In this document: positions 27,886 to 46,219 of the stretch, one piece after another
Numbering within the stretch: the stretch's first letter is position 1
How the letters are laid out: every line of letters starts with the position of its first letter
Source: Hyphococcus flavus
GTDB taxonomy: Bacteria > Pseudomonadota > Alphaproteobacteria > Caulobacterales > Parvularculaceae
Direction: 5' to 3'
Assembly: GCF_028748065.1 (NCBI RefSeq)
Contig: NZ_CP118166.1
Location: forward strand, 1,503,501 to 1,567,500
Length of the DNA: 64,000 bases
Position numbers and translations under genes: made by a program
The notes under the pieces: model-generated
The model's input: only the letters and a program-made list of their open reading frames with translations
What the model was told of the DNA's origin: nothing
The model's database searches: none

Positions 27886-27961
27886 GCCGCATTAGCTCAG
27901 CTGGTAGAGCACATCATTCGTAATGATGGGGTCGGGTGTTCAAGTCACCCATGCGGCACCA
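27886..27961 (+). tRNA. tRNA-Thr (anticodon CGU)
   Basis: A 76-nt cloverleaf: acceptor GCCGCAT/ATGCGGC, D-arm GCTC/GAGC, anticodon stem CATCA/TGATG with loop TTCGTAA (CGT anticodon, reads ACG), T-arm GGGTG/CACCC with TTCAAGT, and encoded CCA. It is the integration target of the island that follows; the tRNA itself is intact. Confidence 0.97.
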
Positions 27962-27962
27962 T
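27916..27962 (+). repeat. attL: 3' half of tRNA-Thr, 47-bp direct repeat
   Basis: These 47 bp, from the anticodon loop through CCA plus one base, occur again without mismatch at 46173-46219. This is the normal footprint of site-specific integration by a tyrosine recombinase into a tRNA gene. Confidence 0.93.
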
Positions 27963-28115
27963 AGGGCATTGTTTTATAAGAGCAAAATAGAGTTAACTTG
28001 ACGCTGCTGCGTATTATTCAATTCTGCACTACCGCTGCGCTACCAACAAGTTTGATTTCACCCCGAATTGTCGTTCCGCCAACATTGCTGAGCATGCTCA
28101 ACTGATGCAAAGGCC

Positions 28116-29900: not shown

Positions 29901-30124
29901 CTCTCACCGAAATTATTCGCCGCACGAAGCGGCTGCCTTGCCGTCACCTTTTCTCTTCCCGAATGAATATTGGAGAAACTCGCTTAAGGAACAATTAAGC
30001 GTATACGAACCATTAACCTTCAATCAAAAAAGCTTAAATCATTTTAAAGAAGACCAGTCGTATTTTCATCGAACTCGGGAGAGCGGCAGAATACGCCGCC
30101 CTCCTATGGGCGGGAGGCCTGGAT

Positions 30125-31384
30125 ATGACTGGTTTGATGAAAACTCTTGTAAGCTTTTTGTGCGCGGTGCTTGTCAGTATTGGCGCATCATTCGCGGAAA
30201 GCGGCGACTGGCAAGTCGTTGAAACCAACGGAACCGTTCGGACATCGCAAGCGATGGCTGGCGTTCAATTGGTTTCGACTGGCAATATTTTAGGCGCAGG
30301 TTCTGTGCTTTCTACCGGCGCAGATGGCCGCGCGGTTCTGGTGCGCGGAGAGCAGCAAATTGTCGTCGGACCGAACAGCCGCATGTCACTGCCAGCGGTA
30401 CAAGAAAAGGGCATGACCAAAATCGTTCAGGACCTTGGCACGCTTCTTTTCAAGGTAGACAAGAAAGAAAAACAACACTTTCAGGTCGAAACCCCAATTA
30501 TCGCGGCTGTGGTCAAAGGAACGACCTTTACGGTGACAGCTGGCGCAAGCGGCCATTCGGTGCACGTCGCGGAAGGTGCGGTTGAGGTATCAGCGCTGAA
30601 TGGCGGTGCAAGTCAAATGGTAACTGCTGGAATGACGGCTATGGTTTCAAAAGCGAACCCGCGCGCTATTGAAATGAGCAGCGGCGGTCAGAAATCCGGC
30701 GATGCAAGCTCTACCGAGCGCGGCGGCAATCCCAAAGGAAAAGAAGCCAGCAACCTTGTGGTGCCGTCCGATGTCGGTGCTGACCAGCTTGATTATTCCA
30801 ACCTCAGCGGCGGGCTCGTCCAGTCATCTGAAAATGCGTCCGGCAAAGCTAGGGCGAATGCATCCATGGGCAATGACGTTTCATCCAATGTTCGAGGACA
30901 AGGCGGCGGGGCGGCTATTGTTGAGCAGGTTCGTTTGAACTCTGTCGGCGATAGCGACAAGTCAAATCGTGGCGTAGGCAACGCATTTGGCTCAAGTAAC
31001 AACAATGGCAACGGCAATGCGAACGCCAACGCCAACGCAGGCGCTGGCAACAACAACGGCAACGGCAATGCGAACGCCAACGCCAACGCAGGCGCTGGCA
31101 ACAACAACGGCAACGGCAACGGCAATGCGAACGCCAACGCCAACGCAGGCGCTGGCAACAACAATGGCAACGGCAACGGCAATGCGAACGCCAACGCCAA
31201 CGCAGGCGCTGGCAACAACAATGGCAACGGCAATGCGAACGCCAACGCCAATGCAGGCGCTGGCAACAACAACGGCAATGCTGGTGTAAATGTTGGCGTC
31301 GGTGTTGGCGGTATTGATGTGGGCGTCGGCGTTGGGCAAGGCGGCGTTAATGTCGGCCTTGGGGGCGGAAATCCAAACAACTAA
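30125..31384 (+). CDS. Secreted FecR-domain protein with Asn/Gly/Ala repeat tail
   Basis: This 419-residue protein has a signal peptide (LMKTLVSFLCAVLVSIGASFAE). A FecR domain at about residues 35-170 (VVETNGTVRTS..., LVRGEQQIVVGPNSRMSLP, FQVETPIIAAVVKGTTFTV, HVAEGAVEVS) is followed by a disordered Ser/Gly stretch. Five near-perfect units of pattern NNNGNGNANANANAGAG (residues about 292-380) and a Gly/Val tail end the protein. Such FecR proteins, with no anti-sigma N-terminus, commonly neighbour CHASE2 sensors, as here (next gene 15 bp downstream). The tail is a candidate surface or secreted polymer-like segment. Confidence 0.82.
   Translation: MTGLMKTLVSFLCAVLVSIGASFAESGDWQVVETNGTVRTSQAMAGVQLVSTGNILGAGSVLSTGADGRAVLVRGEQQIVVGPNSRMSLPAVQEKGMTKIVQDLGTLLFKVDKKEKQHFQVETPIIAAVVKGTTFTVTAGASGHSVHVAEGAVEVSALNGGASQMVTAGMTAMVSKANPRAIEMSSGGQKSGDASSTERGGNPKGKEASNLVVPSDVGADQLDYSNLSGGLVQSSENASGKARANASMGNDVSSNVRGQGGGAAIVEQVRLNSVGDSDKSNRGVGNAFGSSNNNGNGNANANANAGAGNNNGNGNANANANAGAGNNNGNGNGNANANANAGAGNNNGNGNGNANANANAGAGNNNGNGNANANANAGAGNNNGNAGVNVGVGVGGIDVGVGVGQGGVNVGLGGGNPNN
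30998..31264 (+). repeat. Tandem repeat in FecR-domain gene
   Basis: Five in-frame units of 51 or 57 bp (units 3 and 4 have one additional Gly-Asn pair), nearly identical at DNA level. Low sequence divergence suggests recent expansion or slippage, so copy number may vary between strains. Confidence 0.92.
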
Positions 31385-31399
31385 CCAAATGATTATCTA

Positions 31400-33712
31400 A
31401 TGAGAGCGCTGTCCTTGGGGAAATGCGTGTCGAAAATAAACACCGAAATACCTGATGCAGTTGAATCGCAGCGCCCTATGGGCGCTGTGAAACGATTCTC
31501 ACCGTTTTTATTCCTGACAGTTCTGTTGTTCGCTTCCAGCATTTTGGGTTTTATAGAGCCCTTGAACACAGCATTGCTGGACTTGCGCTTCAGGGTTATT
31601 GACCACAAACCTAGCGACACGCTCGTTGTCGTCGAAATTGACCCGAAAAGTTTGAGAGCTGAAGAGCGCTGGCCCTGGCCGCGCGACCGATACGCAACGG
31701 CGGTGTCTAATCTGCAGGATGCCGGTGCAAATCTGATTGCCTTCGATGTGGATTTTTCGTCTCTGTCTGATGACCGCGGCGACGAAGCGTTTGTGGAAGC
31801 TTTGGCGCGCCGCCCTGGTGAAGTTGTTCTGCCCGTTTTCTGGCAATGGTCATCGCGTTCGGCGACGGGGGGCGAGATGATCAAGACACCGCCGCACGAT
31901 AGATTCCTAAATGATGTTACCGTAGCGAGCGTGACCTTGACGACGGAAGAGAACGGCGTTGTTCGCCGCGGATGGCGGGGTGTGAACGACGGCGATGTCT
32001 ATCGCGCTTCAATTGCCTCGGTGCTGGCGGGGGCGTCGCCTTCCGATCAAGCTACGTTCCTGATTGATTATTCGATTGATCCAAAAGAAATAACGCGCCT
32101 CTCGTTCCGTGACGTTTTAACAGGCAAGTTTTCGGCTGAGACTGTGCGCAGAAAGAACGTCCTTATCGGCGCAACAGCGCTGGAGCTCGGTGATGAATTT
32201 GCAGCGCCGGTCCATGGCGTGCTGCCCGGCGTAATGTTTCACGCCATGAGCTATGAAAGCATAATAGCCGACCGAACGCTTGTGCGCCCTCATAGCTTCT
32301 TGCCATTTGTTTTTGGTGTAGCATTGTTAATTTTACTCGTCCGGTGCGGTCGTTTCTGGACTTGGCGAAGACTTGCCACCGTTCATGTGACGCTACTCGT
32401 TGCGACAATTGGCGGTCCATTGATTATCCAGGCTTACTTTCCTCTAAGCATCGATGTCGCAGTGATTCTCGCTGCTCAGTTTCTGGGAGCAGTTTATGTT
32501 GTCGCCTTGCGATTACATCAATATGCGCGGCAGGTGATTCGCCAAAAGGCGGAGATGGCGCATTTCCAGGCGCTGACATCGTTGGTTGTGCAGGACAATA
32601 CGGATGGTGTTGTCGTTGTTGATGACAATGGTTGTGTAGAGCTTTGTAATAATCAAGCTTGCGCTTTGTTAGACATTAGCGACACCGTGATGACAGGCAT
32701 TGTAATCACGGAGCTGGTTCCTGACTTTCCGTTACTCGTTCATGATGACGCCGAGCATTTAGAGGATCAGGGCTACGCTGATATAGGGCCAGTGCTTCAA
32801 AGCGAGTATGTTACCGGCAAAAACAAGGAACGGATTCTTGAGATTGTGGCGAGCAGGCCGTTAACGCGGGGGGAAGTAGCCAAAAATGAAAAGCTGGGAA
32901 ACATCACAGTCTATACCTTGCGTGACGTTTCCGCACGGAAACGGATAGAGGTTGCTGAGAGAGAAGCAAAAGAAGCCGCGATTGCTGCCAATAGAGTCAA
33001 GTCGCAATTGATTTCTAATATGAGCCATGAATTACGCACGCCATTAAATGGCGTAATAGGCTTCGCTGACATACTCCAGAAAGAATCTTTCGGTCCGCTA
33101 GGCGTGCCGGAGTATAAGGAATATAGCGAGAGCATATATATCAGTGGCAAAAGACTACTCACCGTTGTGAATGATATGCTTCATATCGCCAAATTGGATT
33201 CTGGTGACTTCGAATTGTGCAAAACTGAAGTTGAGATTGATGAGCTTATTGAAAATGCGGTCTGTAAATTTGAGGCGCAGGCTGAGCAAGAACAAAAGAC
33301 GCTTACGGTGGAAATTGAGTCTGTCTCGCAAGCAGCAAATGCAGACGTAAGCGTAACTAAGGAAATAATTTCACACCTTCTATCTAATGCTTTCAAATAC
33401 ACCGACGCAGGTGGCGAAATTATCGTTCGCGCTATGCAAGAAAATGGAGACTTGATAATTGAAGTTGAAGACGATGGCTGTGGCGTTGAACCAGAAAACC
33501 TGCCGCGCCTGACCGAAGCGTTTTTTCAAGCTGATGCGGAATTTACCCGAAAATATGAAGGTGCTGGTCTGGGGCTTTATGTCGTGTCGCGTTTCGTAGA
33601 GCTGCATAACGGTCAATTATTTTTCGAAAGTTCGAAGGGCGACGGCTTTCTTGTATGCATTGTGCTTAGGAATGCTATTGTTGAAGACTCTGCGGAAAGT
33701 GTCGCTGCCTAG
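31400..33712 (+). CDS. CHASE2-PAS sensor histidine kinase
   Basis: This 770-residue kinase has an N-terminal TM and a periplasmic CHASE2 domain (about 45-290; ALLDLRFRVIDHKPSDTLVVVEIDPKSL, WPWPRDRYATAVSNL, NVLIGATA). Three TM helices (about 298-375) and a PAS domain (about 395-515) follow. HisKA (QLISNMSHELRTPLNGVIGF, phospho-His) and HATPase_c with N-box HLLSNAFKYT, G1 DDGCGV and G2 GAGLGL complete the protein. No receiver domain or response regulator is adjacent. It lies 15 bp after the FecR-domain gene, so the two are co-transcribed; the FecR protein may be its periplasmic partner. Confidence 0.9.
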   Translation: MRALSLGKCVSKINTEIPDAVESQRPMGAVKRFSPFLFLTVLLFASSILGFIEPLNTALLDLRFRVIDHKPSDTLVVVEIDPKSLRAEERWPWPRDRYATAVSNLQDAGANLIAFDVDFSSLSDDRGDEAFVEALARRPGEVVLPVFWQWSSRSATGGEMIKTPPHDRFLNDVTVASVTLTTEENGVVRRGWRGVNDGDVYRASIASVLAGASPSDQATFLIDYSIDPKEITRLSFRDVLTGKFSAETVRRKNVLIGATALELGDEFAAPVHGVLPGVMFHAMSYESIIADRTLVRPHSFLPFVFGVALLILLVRCGRFWTWRRLATVHVTLLVATIGGPLIIQAYFPLSIDVAVILAAQFLGAVYVVALRLHQYARQVIRQKAEMAHFQALTSLVVQDNTDGVVVVDDNGCVELCNNQACALLDISDTVMTGIVITELVPDFPLLVHDDAEHLEDQGYADIGPVLQSEYVTGKNKERILEIVASRPLTRGEVAKNEKLGNITVYTLRDVSARKRIEVAEREAKEAAIAANRVKSQLISNMSHELRTPLNGVIGFADILQKESFGPLGVPEYKEYSESIYISGKRLLTVVNDMLHIAKLDSGDFELCKTEVEIDELIENAVCKFEAQAEQEQKTLTVEIESVSQAANADVSVTKEIISHLLSNAFKYTDAGGEIIVRAMQENGDLIIEVEDDGCGVEPENLPRLTEAFFQADAEFTRKYEGAGLGLYVVSRFVELHNGQLFFESSKGDGFLVCIVLRNAIVEDSAESVAA

Positions 33713-33773
33713 AAGGCTGGTAGTTTCCTTCATTTACTGCAATCTCATCTGGACAAAAGCACTAAACCGCTGC

Positions 33774-34288
33774 TCAAGCATTCCAAATGTTGTCATGATA
33801 CTCACTTAGCATCGCCCAGAACATCGCGCTGGCATATTCTGCGCGTTCTCTAAGCAGTGGTAGGTTTTCCACCGCATCCATTTTGGTTTTCTTGGGAAAG
33901 GCTCGTCCATGCTGTCGGACGCCCCAAGCTTAATTCGCACGTCCTGAGCGCGTGTGCTCAACCGGTTTGGGTAATCTTCATGTTGGCTAGAGTAGGTTGC
34001 CCGATAGCATGTTCGACAACGGAATAGCTCCCCTACGAAAATTGCGCGGCAGCGGCGGCCGCAGGACAGGCAAATGAATCAATGCCGTGCCCCGCCGAAA
34101 TTCTTTGCTGTTCGAGCAAACGGAATTTCTTCGCGCCCTGGCCTCCACTCCCCACCGCGATTTCTCACCTTGGAGTCGAGAACAAGCGCGTGCGCCTTGT
34201 ATTCCATCTGAACCGCGGCGACGCGCTCGCCATTGCGAGACCAGTAAAACATGCGCTTTAACGCTGAAATAGTTGTCTTGGCAATCAT
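33774..34288 (-). pseudogene. Broken zinc-ribbon protein gene
   Basis: On the minus strand from ATG 34288 a family of small accessory-genome proteins is recognisable: YWSRNGERVAAV, then LDSKVRNRGGEW, then FGGARH. A TGA follows (34079-34081) where relatives have Trp, and the frame goes on with FICLSCGRRCRAIFVGELF and RCRTCYRATYSSQHEDYPNR. Near 33848 a one-base shift breaks PRKPKWMRWKTYH from its continuation LRERAEYASAMFWAMLSEYHDN. So it has one nonsense change and one frameshift. The four Cys form a zinc ribbon. Its ATG overlaps the stop of the 1311-residue gene, so it was once co-translated with it. The 61 bp between it and the kinase hold nothing. Confidence 0.72.
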
Positions 34289-37200
34289 ATCGCATGCATC
34301 TTATCCGGAGTAGGTTTCAATCTACCTCGGTCATTCTCAAAAACCTTCTTTTGCATGTCGACAAGCGTGTTCCAGATTTGCAGGTTTTGTCGTTTTGCCA
34401 GGCGCTCAAGTGAATCTAGATCATATTTCGCCAATCGGTGATAAGTCTGTGCCTTTACTGCGTCGGTATTTTCGAGCGCGATCGCGGCGCGGCGATAAAC
34501 CTTAATCCGTTCGAGCAAAAATCGCATGTGCGCCCGCGACGCGGGCGGCAAAGTCAGTACCAGCACCTCAGCTTCTCGAAGGAATGCAAGGCATCGCGCA
34601 AACGTACTTTCGTCGGAAGACAGCTCTGTGCGATTTGCGGACTCCGATGTTATGCGCAGGATTGAAGATTCCATAACAAGCATGCTCGCCCGCTCTCGAT
34701 CAAATCTGTACAAACCACGGCTCCAGAGATCAGCCATGCGTCGCGCCATGAGTTCAAACTTTCCTTGCATCGTTGCATCGCCGGTTGCTTGGTCGTTGCG
34801 GTCAGACAACGACCCCAGTTTCAAGCAGGTTCGGATCATTGTGCGCGCTGTATGACCGCTCAAAAAATAGTCGCCACCGAACGCATCCTGATCAAAAATG
34901 AACAAGCGAATCTGCTCCGCAATGGTGAAAGCGGCAAGTGCGTCTGAAAACTCTTCTCGAATACTCCGCTTGTCATCTGATGAGAGCTCTTTATTAGCCA
35001 GCCGCAATTCGCCGTGGCGCAAGTCAGCTTTGGTAGCTAGCAACTCTGCATGGCGGGCGACAATCGCGGAAATGTAGGATAGGCTCTTGCCGTCGATCTT
35101 ATTGTCATCCTTATCAAGAATGAACATGCTTGACGTCGAAGAAGACACATCGAGAGGCGAGCGATTGTTTTTGGAACGACTGTAGTTTTCACCGGCAGTC
35201 CAGTGCAGAAACTCATCTTTAAGATCGCGTTTCAGTTCAGAATACTTGTATCGCGTGAGATGTTCAAACCGAACGCGGCCGTCTATTTTCTCCGTGATTT
35301 TGTCTGCCAACGTCTCCGCAGCTTCAAAACTTGAGTTTGACATGAATATGTCGAGCATGCGCTTTGCGGTGCGAAGGTTCGCTAGCGACCATGAAAAATC
35401 GGATTCCTCCCTCGCTAACCCGTTTGGCGCTGGCTCTGTCTTGACCGACGCCGTCCACGGAAGTTTTGCTTTGACGAGCGCAGGGAAGTCTACAGTGCCT
35501 TCCGCATCATCTTCTGTCGCCTTTGGTCGTTGCCAGTGCGGCGACAGGCTGGAGGCTCCTCCCAACAGGAATTCCGTTTGCGCGATCGACAATACGTGTT
35601 CGTTTTGAATTGACCTCAATCGATCAGTGTTGGCGTTGTATTTGGACGCCGGCGAACCGTCATCGCGCAACAGTGACCTGAAAACAGTTGGGTTTTGATC
35701 CGCCGCGATAGGCATCGTCGAATCCGAAAAGTGAAACTGATCGATCCACGGTCGCTCAAGTTTGAGCAACAACTCATATTTAAGCCAGTCGGCGCTGAAT
35801 GATCGCGACAGTCGATATTCGGGGACCCGCTCAAGTAGACGGCGGAAGCAATAACCGGCTGTCCACACCCATGCATCCTTCGCCCCATGCGGTATTTGCG
35901 ACTCCGGTATAGCGCATGGAAATGGCATGAAGGCATCATAATCATCATTGAACGTCAGGCTGCTCAAGGTGTGATAGATGGTTGCCACAATGCGACGATA
36001 TACGCGAATGTCGTCGTCCTTTGCACAACGCGCAGAACGTAGCGCCACAGTTTGTTGCTCCAGATTTTCCTCTGCAAGCAAACGATGGGCGACCAGGCGA
36101 ATGGGGCCATATTCCGGCTTAAACGTCGTGTTTTGCTGAGTCGCTGACTTATTGGGCGGCGTGGTCAATTGGATAATGGTGTTCCGAAGTTCAGGAAAGA
36201 TGAAATTGACAGCGGTGGGCTCGTAACGAGACCTACAAGTATCGGCATCGACGCCGTCCGTTTGTGTCTGTAGCGGACGACCTGGCGAGTCGTCATAACC
36301 TTCGAAGAAATCCTCACTCCGCACCCGTATCAGCGCGGACAGAAGATCAAGAAATTTATCAATCTTCGTATCGACTGCAATGCCGCAATCACTACGATGA
36401 CGCGCCAAATATTCAAGTTGGATGACTGCTTCCTTCGACTGCGCTGCATCGGATCGTTTTTCGTTCCTGACTTTTAACTCACGCGCTTGGGAGAGTTGGC
36501 TATCTAGGTCGATGCTCCGCCACTTGACAAAGATTTTGCCCAGGGTTTCAGGCCGTACGCCGCCAGGGGCGAAAGCGATAACACACAACAGGAAAATATA
36601 TTCCTCATCGATTTTGGCGAGATTCTCCAGCAACCGGGAAAAGAGCCTGTCCAGTAACTGATCTTTTCGGTCGATACCGCGTAGAAATTCTCCTAGGCGG
36701 TCCTGGCATAACCTTGTCGGATTGTTTTTATCGCTGTTGACTGGTTCGGGGTCTTTTGTGCGGCAAACTTCGAGCTCGCACGCGAACACTGCTGACAACA
36801 GGCTAAAAACACCTTCCGATGTTGACTCGTGCAGCGAGGGCGAACTCGACCGCAAACCCAATATCTCATTGGCAAACGCCAGCCGCTGCCACTTGATGAT
36901 TTTCGGCATGGCAGACGCATCCGGTTGTGCGACGGGCAAGTCCGTAAAATCAAACCCTTTAAGAACCTCGTAACGACGGTCAGCAGATCGGTCGAACTTC
37001 AGACTATCGTCTGATAAAATAACAATCCGGTTCTGCGCGAATATGTCGAAATCGAACGTCTCATCGGGTTTGATGACAGGAGTTTCAAGCAAACGCGCAA
37101 CAAGTTCCAACGTATGATTGCCGCTAATGACGCGCCCTGTATTCGGCAGGTTTTGATCTGCATCAAAATAACCGTCAAATATCAATAGCGCCGGCGTGCG

Positions 37201-38220
37201 TGCCATGGAACGACGAATGAACGTAATAGCGTCGTTGATATCATCGGTCGATTGAGGTGATTCGAATCTGTGTCCGGACGGGTGTCCTTCAAAAAAAGAA
37301 CGCAAATGTGCTAGGATTTGTGGAAAGCTGAGACCGCCTCTGCCTCCGTCGCGGTGTAACAAGGGGACGTAGCAGCAATCAAGATCGGATTTGCGCCGCT
37401 TGTTTTCGTCGATAATATGGCCCGCAAGGGCACTTAATCCACCCCACATGCCTGAGCTCAGACTGTAACAATTTACGACTTGCGGTTTGTTTTTTCCGCC
37501 GACGGCGTCAGGCGCGAACAGCTCTTTGTTCAGATGATTAAGGAAACTGAAACGGACCGAATGGTCGTCAGGCTCCTGTTCAACGATGAATTCCGCGGCG
37601 CGATGACGGTCAAGCAGCTCGCAGCGATCATATAAGCGTTTGCGCCCATGTTTAAGCCAGAACTCAAACTGCCACGGAGCATCCGGTCCAATAAATGGCA
37701 AACGGAACAAGTCATCTTCGTGGATCGGCGGTTTTTCCGCGCAACGCAGCTTTTTGTTTATCTCTCCCGCCAGCCAGGCGATAAACGCTTCATCAATGAC
37801 ATGATAGGCTGATTTCTTTTTTGTCTTAAGCTTTTTACCAACTAAATTAGCGTTCAACCGATCTTCAAAATGTAGTGCCTGCACCTGATTTTCGGAATTT
37901 TGCTTGTCGGTTTTGTATTTCCGTGCGTCTTCGGGATGATATCGAGCTTCGGCGAGCTTCCCAATAGATGTATACCCAAGAACAGATTGAATAATGCGAA
38001 AACGAATGAGCGGTCCTAATGAAAGTTTTCTATTCTGTGCAATCTCGAAAAAATATGAACGCGGATGGTTTAACTGGTATTGCTCGTCCAATTCTTCATC
38101 GAATTCTGCAAGGCTTTCTTGATTGATCGATATTTCTTCACTATAGTGTTCTTCTTCTAATGAAACTGCTCTTAGCCATATTTTTTCTAGAATTTCCAGT
38201 CTTGTGCTCGACTGTGGCAT
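34285..38220 (-). CDS. Very large protein with degenerate NTPase core, unknown function
   Basis: This 1311-residue soluble protein has no signal or TM. Residues 1-240 are helical and unrecognised. About 245-430 resemble a P-loop NTPase of the STAND/AAA kind: VVNCYSLSSGMWGGLSALAGHI stands where Walker A is expected but lacks GKS/T. PALLIFDGYFD (343-353) looks like Walker B, and NRIVILSDD (397-405) like a sensor strand. Residues 430-1311 are mainly helical, possibly repeat-like. It starts at ATG after AAGGGGAAATAA and diverges from the PBP-like operon 229 bp away. Large NTPases with helical C-termini are common in defence and conflict systems, but the role here is not known. Confidence 0.7.
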   Translation of the reverse strand: MPQSSTRLEILEKIWLRAVSLEEEHYSEEISINQESLAEFDEELDEQYQLNHPRSYFFEIAQNRKLSLGPLIRFRIIQSVLGYTSIGKLAEARYHPEDARKYKTDKQNSENQVQALHFEDRLNANLVGKKLKTKKKSAYHVIDEAFIAWLAGEINKKLRCAEKPPIHEDDLFRLPFIGPDAPWQFEFWLKHGRKRLYDRCELLDRHRAAEFIVEQEPDDHSVRFSFLNHLNKELFAPDAVGGKNKPQVVNCYSLSSGMWGGLSALAGHIIDENKRRKSDLDCCYVPLLHRDGGRGGLSFPQILAHLRSFFEGHPSGHRFESPQSTDDINDAITFIRRSMARTPALLIFDGYFDADQNLPNTGRVISGNHTLELVARLLETPVIKPDETFDFDIFAQNRIVILSDDSLKFDRSADRRYEVLKGFDFTDLPVAQPDASAMPKIIKWQRLAFANEILGLRSSSPSLHESTSEGVFSLLSAVFACELEVCRTKDPEPVNSDKNNPTRLCQDRLGEFLRGIDRKDQLLDRLFSRLLENLAKIDEEYIFLLCVIAFAPGGVRPETLGKIFVKWRSIDLDSQLSQARELKVRNEKRSDAAQSKEAVIQLEYLARHRSDCGIAVDTKIDKFLDLLSALIRVRSEDFFEGYDDSPGRPLQTQTDGVDADTCRSRYEPTAVNFIFPELRNTIIQLTTPPNKSATQQNTTFKPEYGPIRLVAHRLLAEENLEQQTVALRSARCAKDDDIRVYRRIVATIYHTLSSLTFNDDYDAFMPFPCAIPESQIPHGAKDAWVWTAGYCFRRLLERVPEYRLSRSFSADWLKYELLLKLERPWIDQFHFSDSTMPIAADQNPTVFRSLLRDDGSPASKYNANTDRLRSIQNEHVLSIAQTEFLLGGASSLSPHWQRPKATEDDAEGTVDFPALVKAKLPWTASVKTEPAPNGLAREESDFSWSLANLRTAKRMLDIFMSNSSFEAAETLADKITEKIDGRVRFEHLTRYKYSELKRDLKDEFLHWTAGENYSRSKNNRSPLDVSSSTSSMFILDKDDNKIDGKSLSYISAIVARHAELLATKADLRHGELRLANKELSSDDKRSIREEFSDALAAFTIAEQIRLFIFDQDAFGGDYFLSGHTARTMIRTCLKLGSLSDRNDQATGDATMQGKFELMARRMADLWSRGLYRFDRERASMLVMESSILRITSESANRTELSSDESTFARCLAFLREAEVLVLTLPPASRAHMRFLLERIKVYRRAAIALENTDAVKAQTYHRLAKYDLDSLERLAKRQNLQIWNTLVDMQKKVFENDRGRLKPTPDKMHAI

Positions 38221-38449
38221 TTATTTCCCCTTAGGCGTCTTTTACTTTCACGATCATTATCGAAATCGATGACACGATCAAAGTGTTTTTTGGAAAAATG
38301 GCAAAATAGTCCAAGAGACGAATCGCGTTTTGGGGATAAGCTCCAAAACCTAGCAATAACTGATTTCTGTTTTTGGAACTTGACACGATTTATTACGGCA
38401 TAAGTGTCGCGCATCCTGCCCTCGGGAAATTGTATCCGGAGGGCCGACG

Positions 38450-41080
38450 ATGTCGATACAAACGCAGCACACTGAGCCTAGATCCTCCGCGGCAAACGCC
38501 GCTTCTGCTAAACTGACTGACGCCGCTGGCGCACCGTGTGAAGTATCTTACAATAAAAGTAACCGGTGCGCATTGCACGCAGCACTTGGCGATGCTTGCC
38601 AGCCGGAAAATCCTTTTGTTGCAGATGAGACGGGTATCCGGCCGCATTGCGCGCGCGTAGACGATCCTGGCAGCGGTGGGCGACCGCATGCGCAAGATGA
38701 CAGTGGCGGCGACGGCGTTGTCGATTCGGAGGTGGCGGATGTAACGCCCCAAGTGGAGCAAACCGGCAACGACGCTGATTGCGCTTCGACATCCGCACGA
38801 ACAAGCGGGGCTGATGCACGCTCAAACTGGGCGGGTTTCCAATTACGCGCGGCTGCCTCCGCAGAAGCGATGTTTAAAGTCAAGGTATCGCCCGGGAATA
38901 TCAGCGCGCTGATTCAGGGGTCGAAGGACGCCTTTATGGCGACGGTCGCTGAAATTCGCGACAGCAAGTCATGCGAAGCTACACACATGCCGGCAAAACC
39001 AGTGCGCCCGGCCGCGCACCGCCGCCGACCGCACGGCGCTCAAGTCGCGCAGAAGAAATGTCGACGGCGTCGGCCGTTGCTTGCAGCGGCCGTCGTCTGC
39101 GCGCTCGCGGTAAGCGGGGCGGCTGCCGCACAACTTGCCGCGCCGGAAACGACAGATCGTTTGTTTCGCGCCGTTATCGCCGCAGCGACCGACAAATCGG
39201 TAGTCGACGAAGTTCAGCAAAAACTGGACTGCGCGGAGGCATTTTCGATTGTGGCAGATAGTGGCGGCCCTGTGTTTCTTTCGAAACCAGGGTGTGCGGC
39301 GAATACGGGTTTTCTTTCGGCCCCATTTTCGGATGACCGCAAGTCGTCATTCATAGACGGTGCAAAAAAGGGCGAGGGCGATTATGCGCTGGCGTCGCCA
39401 GCCGCAATAGTAGGCGTCAATATTCCAGGCAAACGCCGGGTCATCACGTCAGGCTTTAACAGTGCCGGCACCGGCCTCGGGATGACAGCGTTTGAGGCAT
39501 TGCTGCGAGCACTGCGGCCATATTTGTCCGCTACGGAAAAACTGAACGGCTTTTTCAAATATATTGCGTTTGTCGCGCACCAGAAAGATGATGCGATGCT
39601 CGACGAAATCGTCGCGCTGGTTCCGACCTGCACTGGGCGCGGCGCACCGGTCGCCGGGGTATACGGCGGCGAGATCTGCCGGGCTATGCTCTTCCCGACG
39701 TCCGGTAATGAATCTATCACCATCGCCGAAACGTGCCTGCTTGCTGCTGGAATCAATGAACCGTTGCTGATCACCTCAAGCAAAGCGCCTGCGACGATCC
39801 AGTTGGAAGCGCAAAATAGGCTCGCCGAACGAAAGGTTCCGGCGCGGCGCTGCCTGAGAGACGCCTACGAGCGCGGTGAAATTGACCGCGACGGTTACAG
39901 GACGGCGAAGGTCTGGCTTGATAGTTACAAGGCGCCGACGATCGAGGATTTCGGGGGGCTTGGACCAAATCCGCAACGCTGGCTTGACAGGCGTCTGCCG
40001 ATGGCGCGCGAGGTGCTGAAGGACGGCGTTCGCTTGCTGGCCGGGCAACCGCGACGCCTAAAGACGTCGCTGATTCCGCCTGCGCAGCAGGCGCTCGACA
40101 CCGCCGTTCGTACGGAACTGGAAACAACTATTGGCGATCGATTGAGCGAAGATGTGTGTGTCGCCGGTTGCAGCACGCCAATTGACTTCATCGTCGCTGT
40201 CGCAGAGAGGCGTATTGATTCAAGATTAGAAATCTTAGCTGTGGCCGCCAGCGACGAAGGTCTATTGCATGGTCCGGTCGCAAACGACGGCACTGTCGGT
40301 AGGCCGCACCGTTCGGGCGGCAGCGCCGGTAAACAGGCGTCGAGTGTCTGTGGCGTGAAGCTGTCGAGCCAAATGCAGATATGCCGCAGCGATCGCTGGG
40401 GCCTTAAAGATCCTGGCGGTGTTGAAGCTACGAGCTGCAGCAATCCGTCAGACTTTGTGTCTCCCATGCAGATCATGGCGCGTTCATTAAACAGCGCTTT
40501 CGCTGAATGGTTGCGTGATATTCCGGACGAGCAGCTGCGGGCGTGTCTGAAAACCATGGGTGCAACCATTCATGACGGCCTTGATGCGGATCAACTGCGC
40601 CGCACAACTGCGGTCGGAACGAAGGTCGTTTATACACCTGCAGCGCTTATGCGCGCGTCGAGCGCGATTGCTTTCGGATCGGCCGCCCTGCCGACGCTGT
40701 TCGACCAGCAAGCCCATGAAGGCTCGGTCCTCGATCTACATGCGTTCTTGACCAATGAGCAGTACTCTGAGGTGCGCCGATTGGCGATCGGCTCAGCGGC
40801 GCCGGCTGGCGGCACTCTTGCCGGATTCAGCGTCGCAGATTGCACGACACGAGCGCTGAAAACAGGCACCGTTGACTCGTATAGCAATTATGAAGTTCGC
40901 GACAAGGTGCTGGTCTGGTCAGGCGTCTGTGATGATCGCGAACTCACCGCCTTTGTGATGATCGGCTCGCCATACATTGATCGACCGCTTGGTGATGTTC
41001 GATCCGTCGAAGCCGCAAGCCTTTTGCGCAGATCCATAACCGCCGTCGCTTCCGCAAAGGTCGAGGAGATTGAAAGATGA
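38450..41080 (+). CDS. Divergent class A PBP-like protein with dead glycosyltransferase domain
   Basis: This 876-residue protein has a 200-residue cytoplasmic part, one TM (about 208-228, LLAAAVVCALAVSGAAA) and a periplasmic region. Residues about 310-490 align with the GT51 glycosyltransferase in order (SPAAIVGVN..., FFKYIAFVAH, VYGGEICRAMLF...ITIAETCLLAAGINEP). The catalytic ExxF region reads VNIPGKRR, so the Glu is missing. Residues about 540-876 align with a transpeptidase: S625-A-G-K628 (SxxK), S679-L-N681 (SxN) and K804-T-G806 (KTG), with VVYTPAALMRASSAIAFG between. The region is Cys-rich. It is the first gene of the operon (GGAGGG 6 nt before ATG) and overlaps the next gene by 4 bp. 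Confidence 0.8.
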   Translation: MSIQTQHTEPRSSAANAASAKLTDAAGAPCEVSYNKSNRCALHAALGDACQPENPFVADETGIRPHCARVDDPGSGGRPHAQDDSGGDGVVDSEVADVTPQVEQTGNDADCASTSARTSGADARSNWAGFQLRAAASAEAMFKVKVSPGNISALIQGSKDAFMATVAEIRDSKSCEATHMPAKPVRPAAHRRRPHGAQVAQKKCRRRRPLLAAAVVCALAVSGAAAAQLAAPETTDRLFRAVIAAATDKSVVDEVQQKLDCAEAFSIVADSGGPVFLSKPGCAANTGFLSAPFSDDRKSSFIDGAKKGEGDYALASPAAIVGVNIPGKRRVITSGFNSAGTGLGMTAFEALLRALRPYLSATEKLNGFFKYIAFVAHQKDDAMLDEIVALVPTCTGRGAPVAGVYGGEICRAMLFPTSGNESITIAETCLLAAGINEPLLITSSKAPATIQLEAQNRLAERKVPARRCLRDAYERGEIDRDGYRTAKVWLDSYKAPTIEDFGGLGPNPQRWLDRRLPMAREVLKDGVRLLAGQPRRLKTSLIPPAQQALDTAVRTELETTIGDRLSEDVCVAGCSTPIDFIVAVAERRIDSRLEILAVAASDEGLLHGPVANDGTVGRPHRSGGSAGKQASSVCGVKLSSQMQICRSDRWGLKDPGGVEATSCSNPSDFVSPMQIMARSLNSAFAEWLRDIPDEQLRACLKTMGATIHDGLDADQLRRTTAVGTKVVYTPAALMRASSAIAFGSAALPTLFDQQAHEGSVLDLHAFLTNEQYSEVRRLAIGSAAPAGGTLAGFSVADCTTRALKTGTVDSYSNYEVRDKVLVWSGVCDDRELTAFVMIGSPYIDRPLGDVRSVEAASLLRRSITAVASAKVEEIER

Positions 41081-42834
41081 CCACTAAACCTGACACATCA
41101 AAAAATGCTTCGGACGCCAAAGCTCATTCAACGTCATCCGGGAAAGCCGACAGGAAGACCGCCAAGGAAACCGCTGACGCGGCCAGCGTCGCGACATCGC
41201 CAAATAACAAGGGTAGTCACGACAAATATAAAGGTCATGTTTCCGCCTTCTTTGTTGCGGCCGTTTTTGGCGGCTTTTCGCTGATTACAACTGGTTTTGG
41301 GATCGCGTCGCTCTTCGCCGATATGCCAACTGCATTCGCTGTGGCTTTTGGCATGCTCGGTAGTCTGGTTGTGTCAACAGCGGTATTCCGATTCTACACC
41401 GCGTGGTTCCGGCGTGAATATTGGAGCCGCTCGACGCTGGCGCTGATCGCTGTTTGTTCGTTGATGGCGTCGATATTATCCGCTGTTCTTGCAAGTGCGA
41501 CGATCAGTTTCGCTGCGCATCAGAGCGCCTTCCAGGCTGAACGCCAGCAACCGGCGATCGTGGAAATGACAGCACCTCTTATTGAGGTGCGGAATAAAGC
41601 GACTGCAAATGCGACGCGCCTTGAGCAATTCAGCAAACGCATGGCGAAATTGAGCGAAGTAGAGGCGACGCGCGGTAATACATGCGACGGCGCAAATTTC
41701 CCTGGCGAATGCGGGCCGAGATGCCGAATGCGCGCGCGGTTGAGCAAAGAAGCAAAAACGTATTCTGACAGCGCTAAAGCTGTCGCCGACGACGCATTGG
41801 CAACAACATCCAATACTGCAGCGATTTCGACTGACGCTGAATGGGCGCAACTCTATCAGACCGTGGCGAAGATCGCTGATGATCCGCGCATTGCCTCTAT
41901 TTCAGAATGGGCGGCGGCAACGGAATACGCTTTTGCAAATGGATTTACGGATCCGGAAACGAATAAGGCATTCACTTGCAGCGACCTGGAAACACAAAAT
42001 GAACTAGCCAGCCTCAAGGCGTTTCTTAGTGAGAAAGTAGGTATCGATAAGGCTCCGATGATTCGTCCGGAAGCGACGTTTTCATTTGTAATTTCGGAAA
42101 ATCTGAATGCGCTTTCATCAATGGCAATGCACCTTGCAGGCATTTCGCCAAGTTATGCTCGCGACGCGGCCGCACGTATGATCGGCCCGCTCTTCTTTGC
42201 ACTGATGGTAGAAACATTCATTGCATTGTCGATTTATCTGGTTTGGTATCGCCGTGACAAACGACCAGACAGTCCCCTCCGCAGTGCGCAAGAAGAATTT
42301 TCCGGCACAAAACACGCGAATGTGCGAATAAAAGGTCCAGCGCCCGCCTCCGCATCGCCTGTCAGAACCTCGATTGAGCGCGTTGGCGTCGATCGCCCAG
42401 CATTTGTTGAGGAAGATCGAAAAGCCCTCGAATTTCTGCATGCAGCATATGCTGAAAGCGTATTCGAGGAAGTCGCGGAAATCTCCCGACGCAACAAACC
42501 GATCTTCAAAACGTATTTCATTCAACCGCTTTCGGGCGTGGATGATGAAACGCGGCGCGCGCAGGACTGGGCTGTGTCAGAACTAAATCTAGAACTGTCT
42601 GATTGGCCTGCGGCCTATGTTGTAGACGAACTGCCCGCGAACTTCCGTGACCGGATCAGGATGCGTTTCCCAGGTGTCGAAGACATCAAGATCTGGACGG
42701 TGCCGACCACCGCTCAAAAGCGGATGAAGAACATCATCAAAGCGCTCGGCCCAACGGTCGATTTCGCATCTGCGCTTGCCAATACCCGAATCCGACAGCG
42801 TGAATTCGAATTTGAACCGCGTATCGTCAACTGA
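41077..42834 (+). CDS. Four-TM protein with periplasmic coiled domain, unknown function
   Basis: This 585-residue protein has a polar Lys/Ala/Ser N-terminus (1-50), three TM helices (about 55-80, 84-106, 119-144) and a helical extracytoplasmic domain (about 150-365). That domain carries a TCDGANFPGECGPRC motif with three Cys. A fourth TM (about 372-394, IGPLFFALMVETFIALSIYLVWY) and a 185-residue cytoplasmic C-terminal domain follow. It ends EPRIVN, and the next protein also ends RIVN. ATG overlaps the stop of the PBP-like gene. I recognise no named family; the layout fits a scaffold joining a cytoplasmic ATPase to the periplasm. Confidence 0.65.
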   Translation: MTTKPDTSKNASDAKAHSTSSGKADRKTAKETADAASVATSPNNKGSHDKYKGHVSAFFVAAVFGGFSLITTGFGIASLFADMPTAFAVAFGMLGSLVVSTAVFRFYTAWFRREYWSRSTLALIAVCSLMASILSAVLASATISFAAHQSAFQAERQQPAIVEMTAPLIEVRNKATANATRLEQFSKRMAKLSEVEATRGNTCDGANFPGECGPRCRMRARLSKEAKTYSDSAKAVADDALATTSNTAAISTDAEWAQLYQTVAKIADDPRIASISEWAAATEYAFANGFTDPETNKAFTCSDLETQNELASLKAFLSEKVGIDKAPMIRPEATFSFVISENLNALSSMAMHLAGISPSYARDAAARMIGPLFFALMVETFIALSIYLVWYRRDKRPDSPLRSAQEEFSGTKHANVRIKGPAPASASPVRTSIERVGVDRPAFVEEDRKALEFLHAAYAESVFEEVAEISRRNKPIFKTYFIQPLSGVDDETRRAQDWAVSELNLELSDWPAAYVVDELPANFRDRIRMRFPGVEDIKIWTVPTTAQKRMKNIIKALGPTVDFASALANTRIRQREFEFEPRIVN

Positions 42835-42870
42835 CCGAACCTTTCGTTCAAAAATCATGAAAAGGAGGGC

Positions 42871-43563
42871 ATGATGAAGTTTTTTCGGTCAAAAACATCT
42901 CGCTGTAAAATGCCAGAACAGCGCTCGCTTATCGTTACGCCTGCGCCTGATCAAAAAAATCGAGGCAAGAACGAGAAGTCCCTGGTTGAGACGCCCAGCG
43001 TGATTCCAAATATCAACCCGGCGGCGATTGAAAAGCGCGCCCTCAAAGCCGGTAAGAAAATAGCCAAAACAAAACTGATTGCCCTGATCATAGGTTTGTT
43101 TGGCGTAGTCGCGCCATATGAAATCATCGCTTTGTCGTTGCTATGCGGTGTTCCAATTATTGTAACGCTTGCCGCATTCATTCGCAGCCGTCTTGACAGG
43201 GACAAATGGGCGGGCCTCGTGGGAAAGGGTGCTGTCGCCATGCTTGTATGCGCCGTACTCGTTGTATTGCGCGGCATGTATGTATCGAGTGATCCCGTCG
43301 CGAAAGCCGGCGCTTTGGCTGGTCAGGTTATCACAGGCGTTCCGTCGGCGGTATGGGCCGGCGTTTTCACAGGCCGTGTTCCAAATATTCCTCTGTTACA
43401 TTTGGCGACGGCCATTGCGCTCACGCTGCTGGCGATCGTCGTCTTTTATCTGCAGTTGAACAATGCGCATCTTTCAAGACCGGCAAAGCCTAAAGACTAC
43501 TATCGCGCGCAAGCGCGCCGGCCTCGGCGGGCCAAACAAATTCCAAATCGAATCGTAAACTGA
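42871..43563 (+). CDS. Multi-pass membrane protein of the same operon, unknown function
   Basis: This 230-residue protein has a basic cytoplasmic N-terminus (1-70) and about four TM helices (LIALIIGLFGVVAPYEIIAL; VPIIVTLAAFI; GAVAMLVCAVLVVLRGMYV; LLHLATAIALTLLAIVVFYL). A short basic tail ends NRIVN. It has an excellent AGGAGG site. It may supply the membrane part that the VirD4-like ATPase downstream lacks (inference from architecture). It ends like the preceding protein. Confidence 0.6.
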   Translation: MMKFFRSKTSRCKMPEQRSLIVTPAPDQKNRGKNEKSLVETPSVIPNINPAAIEKRALKAGKKIAKTKLIALIIGLFGVVAPYEIIALSLLCGVPIIVTLAAFIRSRLDRDKWAGLVGKGAVAMLVCAVLVVLRGMYVSSDPVAKAGALAGQVITGVPSAVWAGVFTGRVPNIPLLHLATAIALTLLAIVVFYLQLNNAHLSRPAKPKDYYRAQARRPRRAKQIPNRIVN

Positions 43564-43721
43564 AGAAAGGAGGCGACTATTAGGTAACCGTCAGCAACAA
43601 GCGCGTGAGTTTTTATAACGTTTGTTGTGCAACCGATGCGAACTCTACAGCTTCATCAACGAGCAATATCGTCCGCATCGATTTTTCCAACGAAGTAAAA
43701 GCAATTGAAAGGACCTGTATC

Positions 43722-44426
43722 ATGGTAAAAGGCGTAAAAGCTGGAGGCGGAACATTCAAAATACCATCGGCATCAATGGCGACGAAAAGGTCGACCGCAA
43801 AGGCCGCTAAACCGCCCCTTACACCGAAGGAACCGCCAACAACACACTCGTCTAAGGCGAAACCCCCGAAATTATCAGGATTGAAACAATATCCCGGCGT
43901 TATCACTGCGGGCACGCGCAGTGGACTCAGGAAAAACGGGATCAACGTCAACGGGCCTCGCGGCGGCAGCGTTTTGAAGGGAAAAGATCAGCAAGGCCGA
44001 CCGGCCATTTTTGTCGATAAGGCCAAATCCGGCGTGCGAAAACTGGCTGAACGCTTTGGTATGAAAACTAAAGGCAAAGACGTTGATCATGTACAGGCTA
44101 AAACAACACTGAAACCTGGCGTCTTTACCCGCCTGCAGGCGATTGATCGGGGTGCAAATAGATCTGCTGGTGCGAGTGAGAGGCGTGCCGGACCGGTAAA
44201 GCTAGTCGACGGTGTCGCTGTTGCCGACAAAGCGACAATTCGAAAGATTAACGGGCACAAGGCTGAAGCGCCGATGCCAAGAAACGCCAAGAAGACCCCG
44301 GCAAACCTTGCTGACAGGTTTAGTGGATATGCAGGTCATGCCGAAGCTAAGCTAGGCCAGAATTCAAAGCCGCGACACTCGCTTAAACCGATCAAGCCGG
44401 TCAAGAAATCAATGAAGCTGTTCTGA
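43722..44426 (+). CDS. Very basic protein with HNH-like motif; possible T4CP substrate or nuclease
   Basis: About 234 residues, very rich in Lys, Arg, Gly and Pro. Residues 1-55 look disordered. Near residues 118-156 the pattern GKDVDHVQAK...TRLQAIDRGANRSAGASERR resembles HNH-type nuclease folds (D-H ... N), though a complete set of metal ligands is not shown. The last 20 residues (PRHSLKPIKPVKKSMKLF) are strongly positive, like signals on type IV secretion substrates. Start at ATG 43722 has GAAAGGACC upstream; the frame is open from a GTG at 43605, leaving a 158-bp gap after the preceding gene. Confidence 0.55.
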   Translation: MVKGVKAGGGTFKIPSASMATKRSTAKAAKPPLTPKEPPTTHSSKAKPPKLSGLKQYPGVITAGTRSGLRKNGINVNGPRGGSVLKGKDQQGRPAIFVDKAKSGVRKLAERFGMKTKGKDVDHVQAKTTLKPGVFTRLQAIDRGANRSAGASERRAGPVKLVDGVAVADKATIRKINGHKAEAPMPRNAKKTPANLADRFSGYAGHAEAKLGQNSKPRHSLKPIKPVKKSMKLF

Positions 44427-44430
44427 GATC

Positions 44431-46038
44431 GTGGTCAATAAAATGGTAAGTCAAAGCGACGAAGAGAACTCACTCACTCCAGTCAATAACTATCAGGAGG
44501 CGGACTTCCGCCTCCTGTCATCCGGCTGCGACATCAGGCCGTTACCGCCCATGCATTTTCCGATCGCGGCCGATCACTGCTTCATGGCAAAAGGATTAAG
44601 CAGAAAGGTTAGGGGGGCTGTAGCAACGCTTTGCCGCGTTTTCAGATCGGCTATGTTTCGAACGCCGTTCGATCCACAGCCTATCGTATCAGTAGAAGTC
44701 AATACACTGACGATGGTTTCTGGCAGTTCCGGGTCTGGCAAGAAAGCCCAGATAGTTACCCCGATGCTTACGCTAATAGATGAGCCGATGGTCTATATCG
44801 ATCCGCAACGCGAAGCTGAGGAGGATGTTCCATTACGAGCGGCGTTAGGTCGGTATGTCTATGTTTTCGATCCGCGACGCCGCGATTCTGCTTCCGTCAA
44901 TGTGTTAGCGGGTCTTTTGATTGATCAACCCGATTTCCTGGAGATTATCGAGTTGATTGTCGACGACCTTTGTCCAGAAGGCGGCGCTGAAGCGAGAACA
45001 GAAGAAGGGATAAAATATACGCGCCGAGCGCTTCGGGTCGCGATTGCGAACGAGGCCCAGCTGTCATTTATCGAAGGCAGACCGCCATCTCTTGTCGAAG
45101 TTGGCGAAGCCTTGGGAACTGACCGCATTGTTGAATCAATGCGTGCGTGGGCGGATTTCGGTCATAGAGACTTTAGACGACAAGCGGAGGATTTTCATTT
45201 TGATTTCAATAACGACCCGGAGGTTCGTGGTGGCGTCGCAAGCTTCATCCAGCGTGACCTCTCGTGGTTAAGTGATCAAAATTCGGCGCGCTTAGTAACC
45301 GGCGAAACTGGCGATGTCGCCGATCCACGCGATATGTTAGGTGATAGAATAAAATGCGACTGGTTTCTGCAACCGGGAGAAAACCTGGATGCGTCGGCTT
45401 CATTGTGGCGGATCTTACTGGGGACGGTCCGGCGCGAGCGTCGCAAATTGACGAAAGCGCAAGCACGTAGCATTGGTACACCAACATGGTTCATCGTTGA
45501 TGAATTTCCGCGCGTAGCCGGTGCCGGCGCCAAAACTTTTGATGCACTTGTCGTAACGGACCGACAAAAGCTTTGCCTGCCGGTCTATATTTACCAGCAT
45601 GATAAACAGATTGCGAAAGCCTTTGGTGAAGGAACCTTGAAATATTGGCGTGATTCGGCCTCACTCCGGATCTCACTGACCCCCGATCCTGAAACAGCTC
45701 GTGAGATCGCTGCAGAATGCGGCAAGGTTTATCATTGCGAAATGAACTATTCCGGCGAAGGGGACGGCGTCAGGGCTCATGCACAACGTCAATGGACGCC
45801 TATCGATGCCGTTTCGGAAAATGTTTTGGCGAGTATGAAGATGGGCGATGTTGTTTGCCGGTATGCAAGTCCGCACAAGGAGCGATTTACGATTGTCGAT
45901 ACAGGACCGCTATTTTTTAAAATGCCCTTGTTTAAATCATATGTTGAGGCATGCATGCGAAAATATCCCTTCCCGTTTAAGGCCGCTTACTACGACAAAA
46001 GCGAGATCGAAAGTTTTGGTCAACTTGAAGAAAAATAG
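44431..46038 (+). CDS. VirD4/TraG-like coupling-protein ATPase without TM anchor
   Basis: This 535-residue P-loop ATPase belongs to the VirD4/TraG/TraD family. It has Walker A VSGSSGSGKKAQIVTPML (98-105; Lys follows GK where Ser/Thr is usual), then VYIDPQREAEE and YVFDPRRRDSASVNVLAGL. Walker B is TWFIVDEFPRVAG (352-362). The glutamine-type motif is replaced by VYIYQHDKQIAKAFGEG, followed by SLRISLTPDPETAREIAAECGK. VirD4 proteins normally have two N-terminal TM helices; none is seen in the first 90 residues. It lies 4 bp after the basic protein gene and ends the operon. GTG 44431 or ATG 44443 may be the start. Confidence 0.85.
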   Translation: MVNKMVSQSDEENSLTPVNNYQEADFRLLSSGCDIRPLPPMHFPIAADHCFMAKGLSRKVRGAVATLCRVFRSAMFRTPFDPQPIVSVEVNTLTMVSGSSGSGKKAQIVTPMLTLIDEPMVYIDPQREAEEDVPLRAALGRYVYVFDPRRRDSASVNVLAGLLIDQPDFLEIIELIVDDLCPEGGAEARTEEGIKYTRRALRVAIANEAQLSFIEGRPPSLVEVGEALGTDRIVESMRAWADFGHRDFRRQAEDFHFDFNNDPEVRGGVASFIQRDLSWLSDQNSARLVTGETGDVADPRDMLGDRIKCDWFLQPGENLDASASLWRILLGTVRRERRKLTKAQARSIGTPTWFIVDEFPRVAGAGAKTFDALVVTDRQKLCLPVYIYQHDKQIAKAFGEGTLKYWRDSASLRISLTPDPETAREIAAECGKVYHCEMNYSGEGDGVRAHAQRQWTPIDAVSENVLASMKMGDVVCRYASPHKERFTIVDTGPLFFKMPLFKSYVEACMRKYPFPFKAAYYDKSEIESFGQLEEK

Positions 46039-46090
46039 ATGTAATTTGAAGCCTTAGAAAGTCACTTTCAGGTGCTACGACAATGCGGTA

Positions 46091-46113
46091 CGCGTTAGTT
46101 CATACCTAACGCG
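46091..46113 (+). terminator. Inverted repeat after the operon, possible terminator
   Basis: CGCGTTAG and CTAACGCG form a perfect 8-bp stem with a 7-nt loop 52 bp after the operon's last stop. The T-rich run (CCCCATTTTATT) begins a few bases after the stem, so termination is plausible but not canonical. Confidence 0.4.
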
Positions 46114-46172
46114 GCCCCATTTTATTCAGGCTAAGGTGCTGATTTATATTAGTTATTTATATACCGTATATT

Positions 46173-46219
46173 ATTCGTAATGATGGGGTCGGGTGTTCAA
46201 GTCACCCATGCGGCACCAT
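46173..46219 (+). repeat. attR: exact copy of the tRNA-Thr 3' half
   Basis: Identical for 47 bp to 27916-27962. The upstream 5' half of the tRNA is absent, so this is a junction and not a second tRNA gene. Just left of it ATATACCGTATAT is a near-palindrome of possible recombination relevance. Confidence 0.93.

Follow-up and report, generated by a model that had tools for sequence, protein, structure and literature searches.

A giant gene and a divergent envelope operon on a tRNA-Thr island of Hyphococcus flavus: a possible conflict system

Among described bacterial systems, those closest to the gene cluster considered here connect conflict functions with the cell wall. The iSTAND systems of Gram-negative bacteria include peptidoglycan-associating effectors (Kaur et al., 2020; PMC7159879), and in Zorya II a membrane complex anchored to the wall brings in an HNH nickase (PMC11890865). 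The present cluster lies in Hyphococcus flavus, at positions 34285-46038 of a 64,000-nucleotide stretch (contig NZ_CP118166.1, positions 1,503,501 to 1,567,500; hereafter the window). It comprises a giant gene, P0001, and a divergent operon of five genes, P0002 to P0006, which encode a protein resembling penicillin-binding proteins (PBPs), two membrane proteins, a very basic protein, and a VirD4/TraG-type ATPase (Table 1). No description of this gene set was found in the literature. It is quite possible, though short of probable, that the cluster encodes an anti-phage or anti-competitor conflict system, in which P0001 acts as a cytoplasmic regulator that controls the divergent envelope module.

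The cluster and its island

A genomic island of 18.3 kb (27962-46218) has the cluster as its right-hand part and as one of its cargo modules. It begins at tRNA-Thr(CGT) and is closed on the right by an exact repeat of the last 47 bp of this tRNA gene. The repeat is exact at both borders, with 0 copies expected by chance. In two congeners (G099 and G189) the site is empty, with pheT-tRNA-Thr followed within ~100 bases by a BCCT transporter gene, and the same transporter gene forms the right flank of the island in H. flavus. The island thus lies at a tRNA site between direct repeats, relatives show this site unoccupied, and an integrase of the island's own is absent. The ORF (open reading frame) listing and family scans revealed no integrase, relaxase, or VirB genes within 27962-46218, which confirms the absences reported in the first-pass annotation of this DNA; nor could the cluster be recognized as the end of a conjugation element already described, a possibility which that annotation had raised. 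The genes that it listed stand, whereas its picture of a standalone operon does not, since the cluster is cargo of the tRNA-Thr island.

Two other congeners (G149 and G278) have a tyrosine integrase after the same tRNA-Thr, and a third (G243) has an integrase-looking fragment there that lacks a Pfam match and is unconfirmed. Because congeners carry integrases at this position, tRNA-Thr(CGT) is an integration hotspot in the genus. The corresponding loci downstream of pheT (L092:4113-5420, L104:2-1258, and L105:1-381) contain two different tyrosine integrases and the one unconfirmed integrase-like fragment. Apart from the tRNA, no RNA families were found (Rfam).

Within the cluster, all six ORFs were recovered at the coordinates and on the strands proposed earlier, with five plus-strand genes (38450-46038) facing away from the gene of 1311 residues. 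Clear Shine-Dalgarno sequences are present at all of them except P0006, where the sequence is weak. P0002 and P0003 share a 4-base overlap (ATGA), and the gaps that follow are 36 bases (P0003-P0004), 41 bases (P0004-P0005), and 4 bases (P0005-P0006). The second of these gaps becomes 158 bases if P0005 begins at ATG 43722, which is a likelier start (AAAGGACC upstream; 234 residues) than GTG 43605 (273 residues). Promoter-like matches in the 229-bp divergent region are not above chance. Searches of Pfam, NCBIfam, PHROGs, and PADLOC returned no meaningful match for P0001 to P0005, and P0006 alone matches curated families, in agreement with the earlier view of the cluster as undescribed. A PDB sequence search yielded nothing useful.

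The recurring core and the giant family

The first-pass annotation had proposed that co-occurrence of these genes be examined in other genomes. Co-occurrence holds for three of the six, namely the giant, the PBP-like gene, and P0003, and the full five-gene set was not found elsewhere. On a plasmid of Rhizobium leguminosarum Gr 12/7 (NZ_CP090091.1, 154-162 kb), relatives of P0002 and P0003 adjoin each other in the same order and are divergent from a giant of 1138 residues, as in H. flavus. The Rhizobium locus differs in that P0004, P0005, and P0006 are absent, the third gene encodes an unrelated exported protein of 394 residues, annotation divides the PBP between two ORFs, and the giant keeps its P-loop. 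The neighborhood of this core (L007:7539-33351) also contains AbiE, RES, IetAS, GASH, and metallophosphoesterase genes. Because the core set recurs beside anti-phage genes in a distant bacterium, it may belong to an undescribed defense or competition system. The comparisons of the PBP and P0003 families are based on two-member alignments. As the five-gene set was found nowhere else, P0004, P0005, and P0006 are assigned to the module from operon layout only.

The P0001 family is rare. Profile searches and phmmer identified five relatives in five genomes, one on a Rhodovulum P5 plasmid and four in genomes of the same order; no relative was found in phages. The Walker A P-loop is missing at the expected place in P0001 and its five closest relatives (6/6; e.g., GMWGGLSALAGH), and P0001 is therefore not an intact NTPase, so the earlier label of a giant NTPase has to be abandoned. 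The protein is probably STAND-derived, with Walker A lost and the nucleotide site decayed, as judged from its sequence motifs and a distant profile link. A profile of the six family members aligned with a profile of the 1138-residue giant and a second Rhizobium giant over 184 C-terminal columns (hhalign probability 96%, E = 3e-9). Both of these giants (from L007 and L009) bear a P-loop, and the L009 giant has a weak AAA_16 match (E = 2e-4, below the cut-off). A direct two-sequence hhalign comparison of P0001 with the 1138-residue giant was negative, and the link was positive only with all six members.

The neighbors of the P0001 family vary from locus to locus, so that the giant has the appearance of a mobile hub whose outputs can be exchanged. 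In one genome (G048; L157:11243-18781), the P0001 relative is followed by a TIR-TPR protein, a protein of 208 residues, and a TPR-S protein, with matches to ThsB_TIR (E = 5e-10) and TPR-S (E = 2e-8); this arrangement is possibly an unlisted TIR defense cluster. On the Rhodovulum P5 plasmid, the neighbors are membrane and exported proteins. The relative in G025 adjoins a tyrosine integrase, and the genes around it encode small secreted proteins as well as a lipoprotein whose match to TonB_C is borderline. In G128, the relative is divergent from three genes, which encode a protein with five transmembrane segments, a secreted protein of basic character, and a small protein. A more distant giant in Rhizobium RCAM1365 is located near a weakly caspase-like protein. 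Based on hhalign comparisons, neither P0002 nor P0003 has a homologue among the divergent partners in three loci (L008, L156, and L158).

Two of these loci have further features. The G128 genes, a P0001 relative and its divergent three-gene membrane/secreted operon, make up an island of 8.3 kb (L158:5572-13944) that lacks an integrase, lies at tRNA-Ser(CGA), and is enclosed by a 17-bp repeat of the tRNA-Ser 3' end. At L156:8123-8521, a small secreted protein encoded divergently from a P0001 relative contains three repeats like SEDTIIAGIGGGDVNIGINT.

Proteins of the operon and other island cargo

P0002 is likely a PBP derivative, judging from motifs and profile evidence. As in class A PBPs, it has one N-terminal transmembrane segment (residues 209-227; transmembrane segments were called by hydropathy throughout), a GT51-tail-like segment, and the motifs SxxK, SxN, and KTG in order (S625xxK628, S679xN681, and K804TGT at K804-T807, spaced by 54 and 125 residues). 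All three motifs are kept in the relative on the R. leguminosarum plasmid (29% identity, E = 3e-25). When 29 class A PBPs taken from relatives were combined in a profile, it aligned to residues 670-752 of P0002 with SxN in register (hhalign E = 0.0017). The GT51-tail-like remnant, at about residues 420-455, beats 98.6% of shuffles in P0002; for the Rhizobium relative the figure is 99.3%. The transpeptidase segments were scored in the same way, and over both kinds of segment the values for the two proteins range from 98.6 to 99.4%. Unlike class A PBPs, P0002 has a long N-terminal extension, no Pfam match, and no recognizable GT51 catalytic Glu motif (E[D]xxFxxHxG). Its glycosyltransferase part is probably dead, and the part carrying the transpeptidase motifs is probably periplasmic. 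The motifs and the weak profile evidence thus support the earlier description of a periplasmic transpeptidase-like protein. A search of 299 same-order genomes found only FtsI (E = 8e-4, in one genome) and one short match, a profile search of 385 same-class genomes found no relative, and no match was confirmed in degenerate-peptide scans of genome contigs and viral contigs.

P0003 and P0004, with four predicted transmembrane segments each, agree with the two multi-pass membrane proteins described before. The Rhizobium relative of P0003 (E = 3e-15), which adjoins the PBP relative, keeps cysteines C203, C212, C216, and C301. A DNA pattern for this Cys motif had 62 matches over genome contigs, with 0 confirmed relatives, and degenerate-peptide scans of viral contigs for P0003, P0001-type giants, and P0006 likewise gave none confirmed. 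For P0004, no relative was found in Pfam, NCBIfam, or plasmid searches; nothing significant was found in plasmids for P0005 either. P0005 lacks transmembrane segments and has a net charge of +37 for the 273-residue reading, and so the basic character noted in the first-pass annotation holds. Its HNH likeness is unconfirmed: the stretch DVDHVQ...RLQAIDRGANRSAG (DVDHVQ...ANRSAG) resembles HNH nucleases by eye only, and neither profiles nor structure gave support for an HNH fold.

The sequence of P0006 identifies it as a genuine VirD4/TraG ATPase, although a divergent one that lacks a membrane anchor. It exceeds the curated cut-offs for T4SS-DNA_transf (PF02534, E = 6e-11, 42.2 bits vs. 20.1) and TraG-D_C (PF12696, E = 2e-6, 27.9 bits vs. 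22), which bears out the coupling-protein ATPase proposed earlier; a match to NCBIfam TraG (E = 2e-10) is below the cut-off. In common with VirD4/TraG coupling ATPases, it has both of these domains as well as Walker A (GSSGSGKK) and Walker B (IVDEFP) motifs. It differs from them in having no N-terminal transmembrane anchor (no hydrophobic segment by hydropathy), no relaxase or VirB genes nearby, and no close relative in the collections searched. Searches of 299 genomes of the same order and 385 of the same class matched only ordinary TraG proteins of type IV secretion systems (T4SSs) or mobilization (E ~1e-5). Elsewhere in the same genome there is a Trb-type T4SS cluster (C1:266236-280539; L141:4236-18539), which includes a TraG of its own and has an ORF resembling tyrosine integrases close by.

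The left-hand part of the island carries genes for two-partner secretion, a FecR-domain protein, and a histidine kinase. The C-terminal end of the FecR protein (30986-31290) is a long NNGNGNANANANAGAG tandem repeat, which is possibly an exported tail handled by the adjoining TpsB.

Table 1. Coordinates in the window of the cluster, the other island genes, and the island borders.
Feature	Coordinates	Strand	Basis
P0001, giant of 1311 residues, regulator-like, divergent from operon	34285..38220	-	ORF; five relatives
Divergent intergenic region, 229 bp, candidate shared control region	38221..38449	.	Sequence; GC 0.43
P0002, bitopic protein of 876 residues, probable class A PBP derivative	38450..41080	+	Rhizobium relative, motifs, profile evidence
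P0003, 585 residues, four transmembrane segments, large Cys-containing loop (150-340), soluble tail	41077..42834	+	Rhizobium relative, hydropathy
P0004, 230 residues, four transmembrane segments, basic tails, net charge +25	42871..43563	+	Hydropathy
P0005, very basic protein of 234 residues	43722..44426	+	Ribosome-binding site; no family match
P0006, VirD4/TraG-type ATPase of 535 residues, no transmembrane segment	44431..46038	+	PF02534, PF12696, hydropathy
TpsB-type two-partner secretion outer-membrane protein (ShlB/FhaC)	28116..29900	-	PF03865 (E = 2e-23), POTRA_2
FecR-domain secreted protein, Gly/Asn/Ala repeat tail	30125..31384	+	PF04773 (E = 1e-10)
CHASE2-PAS-histidine kinase	31400..33712	+	PF05226, PF00512, PF02518
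tRNA-Thr (CGT), left island end, integration site	27886..27961	+	ARAGORN, Rfam RF00005
47-bp direct repeat, left copy, att-like, identical to tRNA 3' end	27916..27962	+	Exact repeat
47-bp direct repeat, right copy	46173..46219	+	Exact repeat; second-best copy in own genome

Possible function and comparison with known systems

A conflict function is suggested by the defense neighbors, the TIR and TPR-S partners, the island location, the rarity, and the fast divergence of these genes. In such a system, a trigger would be sensed by P0001, the PBP domain of P0002, or both, and P0001 would control the divergently transcribed envelope module. P0002 would be an inner-membrane protein whose PBP domain lies in the periplasm and may sense or cross-link the wall there, and P0003 and P0004 could form an inner-membrane scaffold. 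P0006, having no membrane anchor of its own, may dock on the cytoplasmic tails of P0003 and P0004 and spend ATP on moving DNA or the basic protein P0005. The latter would be the effector that binds, and perhaps cuts, DNA. The compact envelope-spanning machine proposed in the first-pass annotation stands as an envelope-located multi-protein module, and its role in secretion or uptake gained no direct support.

Several points weigh against a conflict function. The proposed STAND ancestry of P0001 draws on weak motifs and on a profile link that covers the C-terminal part only. The Rhizobium locus lacks the VirD4 ATPase, and P0004, P0005, and P0006 have no relative in any equivalent locus searched. 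Single-sequence AlphaFold2 models are too poor to use for both P0002 (predicted local distance difference test score, pLDDT, 38; no Foldseek match at E <= 0.001) and P0005 (pLDDT 52), and the HNH assignment of the latter is unconfirmed. Moreover, the TpsB, FecR, and CHASE2-kinase genes on the same island show no obvious defense role, and no PADLOC system matches the cluster.

Other explanations draw on the same genes. P0006 may drive a toxin-like P0005 out of the cell via P0002-P0004, or to a separate Trb-type T4SS, for secretion or contact-dependent killing. The VirD4 domain, the basic candidate substrate encoded directly upstream of P0006, and the Trb cluster of this genome (about C1:268-281 kb, with its own TraG) are consistent with this explanation, but that cluster is already supplied with a coupling protein, P0006 lacks a transmembrane anchor, the operon has no outer-membrane or pilus component, no immunity gene was recognized, and the Rhizobium relative keeps the PBP and P0003 without the ATPase. 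Secretion appears unlikely. That the operon is a remnant or mobilization module of an integrative element, with P0006 serving as the coupling protein between the island and a conjugation system and the other genes being decayed accessories, appears distinctly improbable. Although the tRNA island with att-like repeats, the VirD4/TraG domain, and a tRNA-Thr that is a hotspot for integrases would fit, the island has no relaxase or integrase gene, the genes are intact with good ribosome-binding sites, and the recurring core of giant, PBP, and P0003 excludes the coupling protein.

Alternatively, the island may carry an envelope function unrelated to conflict, such as wall remodeling or envelope-stress sensing, with the giant as a transcriptional or assembly regulator. 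Retention of the PBP active-site motifs in a relative with 29% identity argues for this possibility, as do the adjoining CHASE2 kinase and FecR, which are signaling genes. However, the Rhizobium core lies in a dense defense neighborhood, one relative of the giant pairs with TIR and TPR-S proteins, and housekeeping genes are not usually so extremely rare or so quick to diverge. An envelope role of this kind appears rather improbable.

Beyond the conflict function itself, the cluster might represent a new class of mobile defense, a tentative and somewhat doubtful proposal. This class would combine a P-loop-less giant, a wall-anchored inner-membrane machine, an anchorless VirD4-type ATPase, a PBP that serves as the contact to the wall or as a sensor of damage, and a basic effector resembling nucleases, and the giant family would be a hub that swaps outputs (envelope operons, or TIR with TPR-S). 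If these ideas are correct, conjugation-type DNA/protein pumps and a cell-wall transpeptidase would be linked to immunity, and rare giant regulators that lack a P-loop would form a family in which partner genes are traded from one island to another. Such modules would spread on tRNA islands without an integrase of their own, and the mobile borders would therefore tell which genes travel together.

The cluster was also compared with individual known systems. MADS (Mad1-8) was rejected, as PADLOC gave only a weak match between mad8 and P0006 (E = 8e-4). Zorya was rejected given that Pfam, NCBIfam, and PADLOC gave no MotA/ExbB or OmpA-like match. The likeness to type II Zorya (ZorA-ZorB-ZorE; PMC11890865) is by analogy only and consists of a peptidoglycan-contacting membrane complex together with a nuclease-like protein. 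In contrast to Zorya, the cluster has no MotA/MotB homology, a PBP takes the place of the OmpA-like domain, a VirD4-like ATPase and a giant regulator are added, and the nuclease fold of P0005 is unproven. The ternary MoxR-vWA type of iSTAND system was rejected because no MoxR AAA+ or vWA family is found among the island genes. Compared with iSTAND conflict systems in general, the P0001 cluster differs in having no adjoining MoxR/vWA genes, in having its outputs in a separate divergent operon, and in giants that are too divergent for a profile match. The features shared with these systems (PMC7159879) are a large, catalytically inactive core (probably STAND-like in P0001), a concentration in Gram-negative bacteria, and variable partner or effector genes that include TIR, caspase-like, and peptidoglycan-associated parts.

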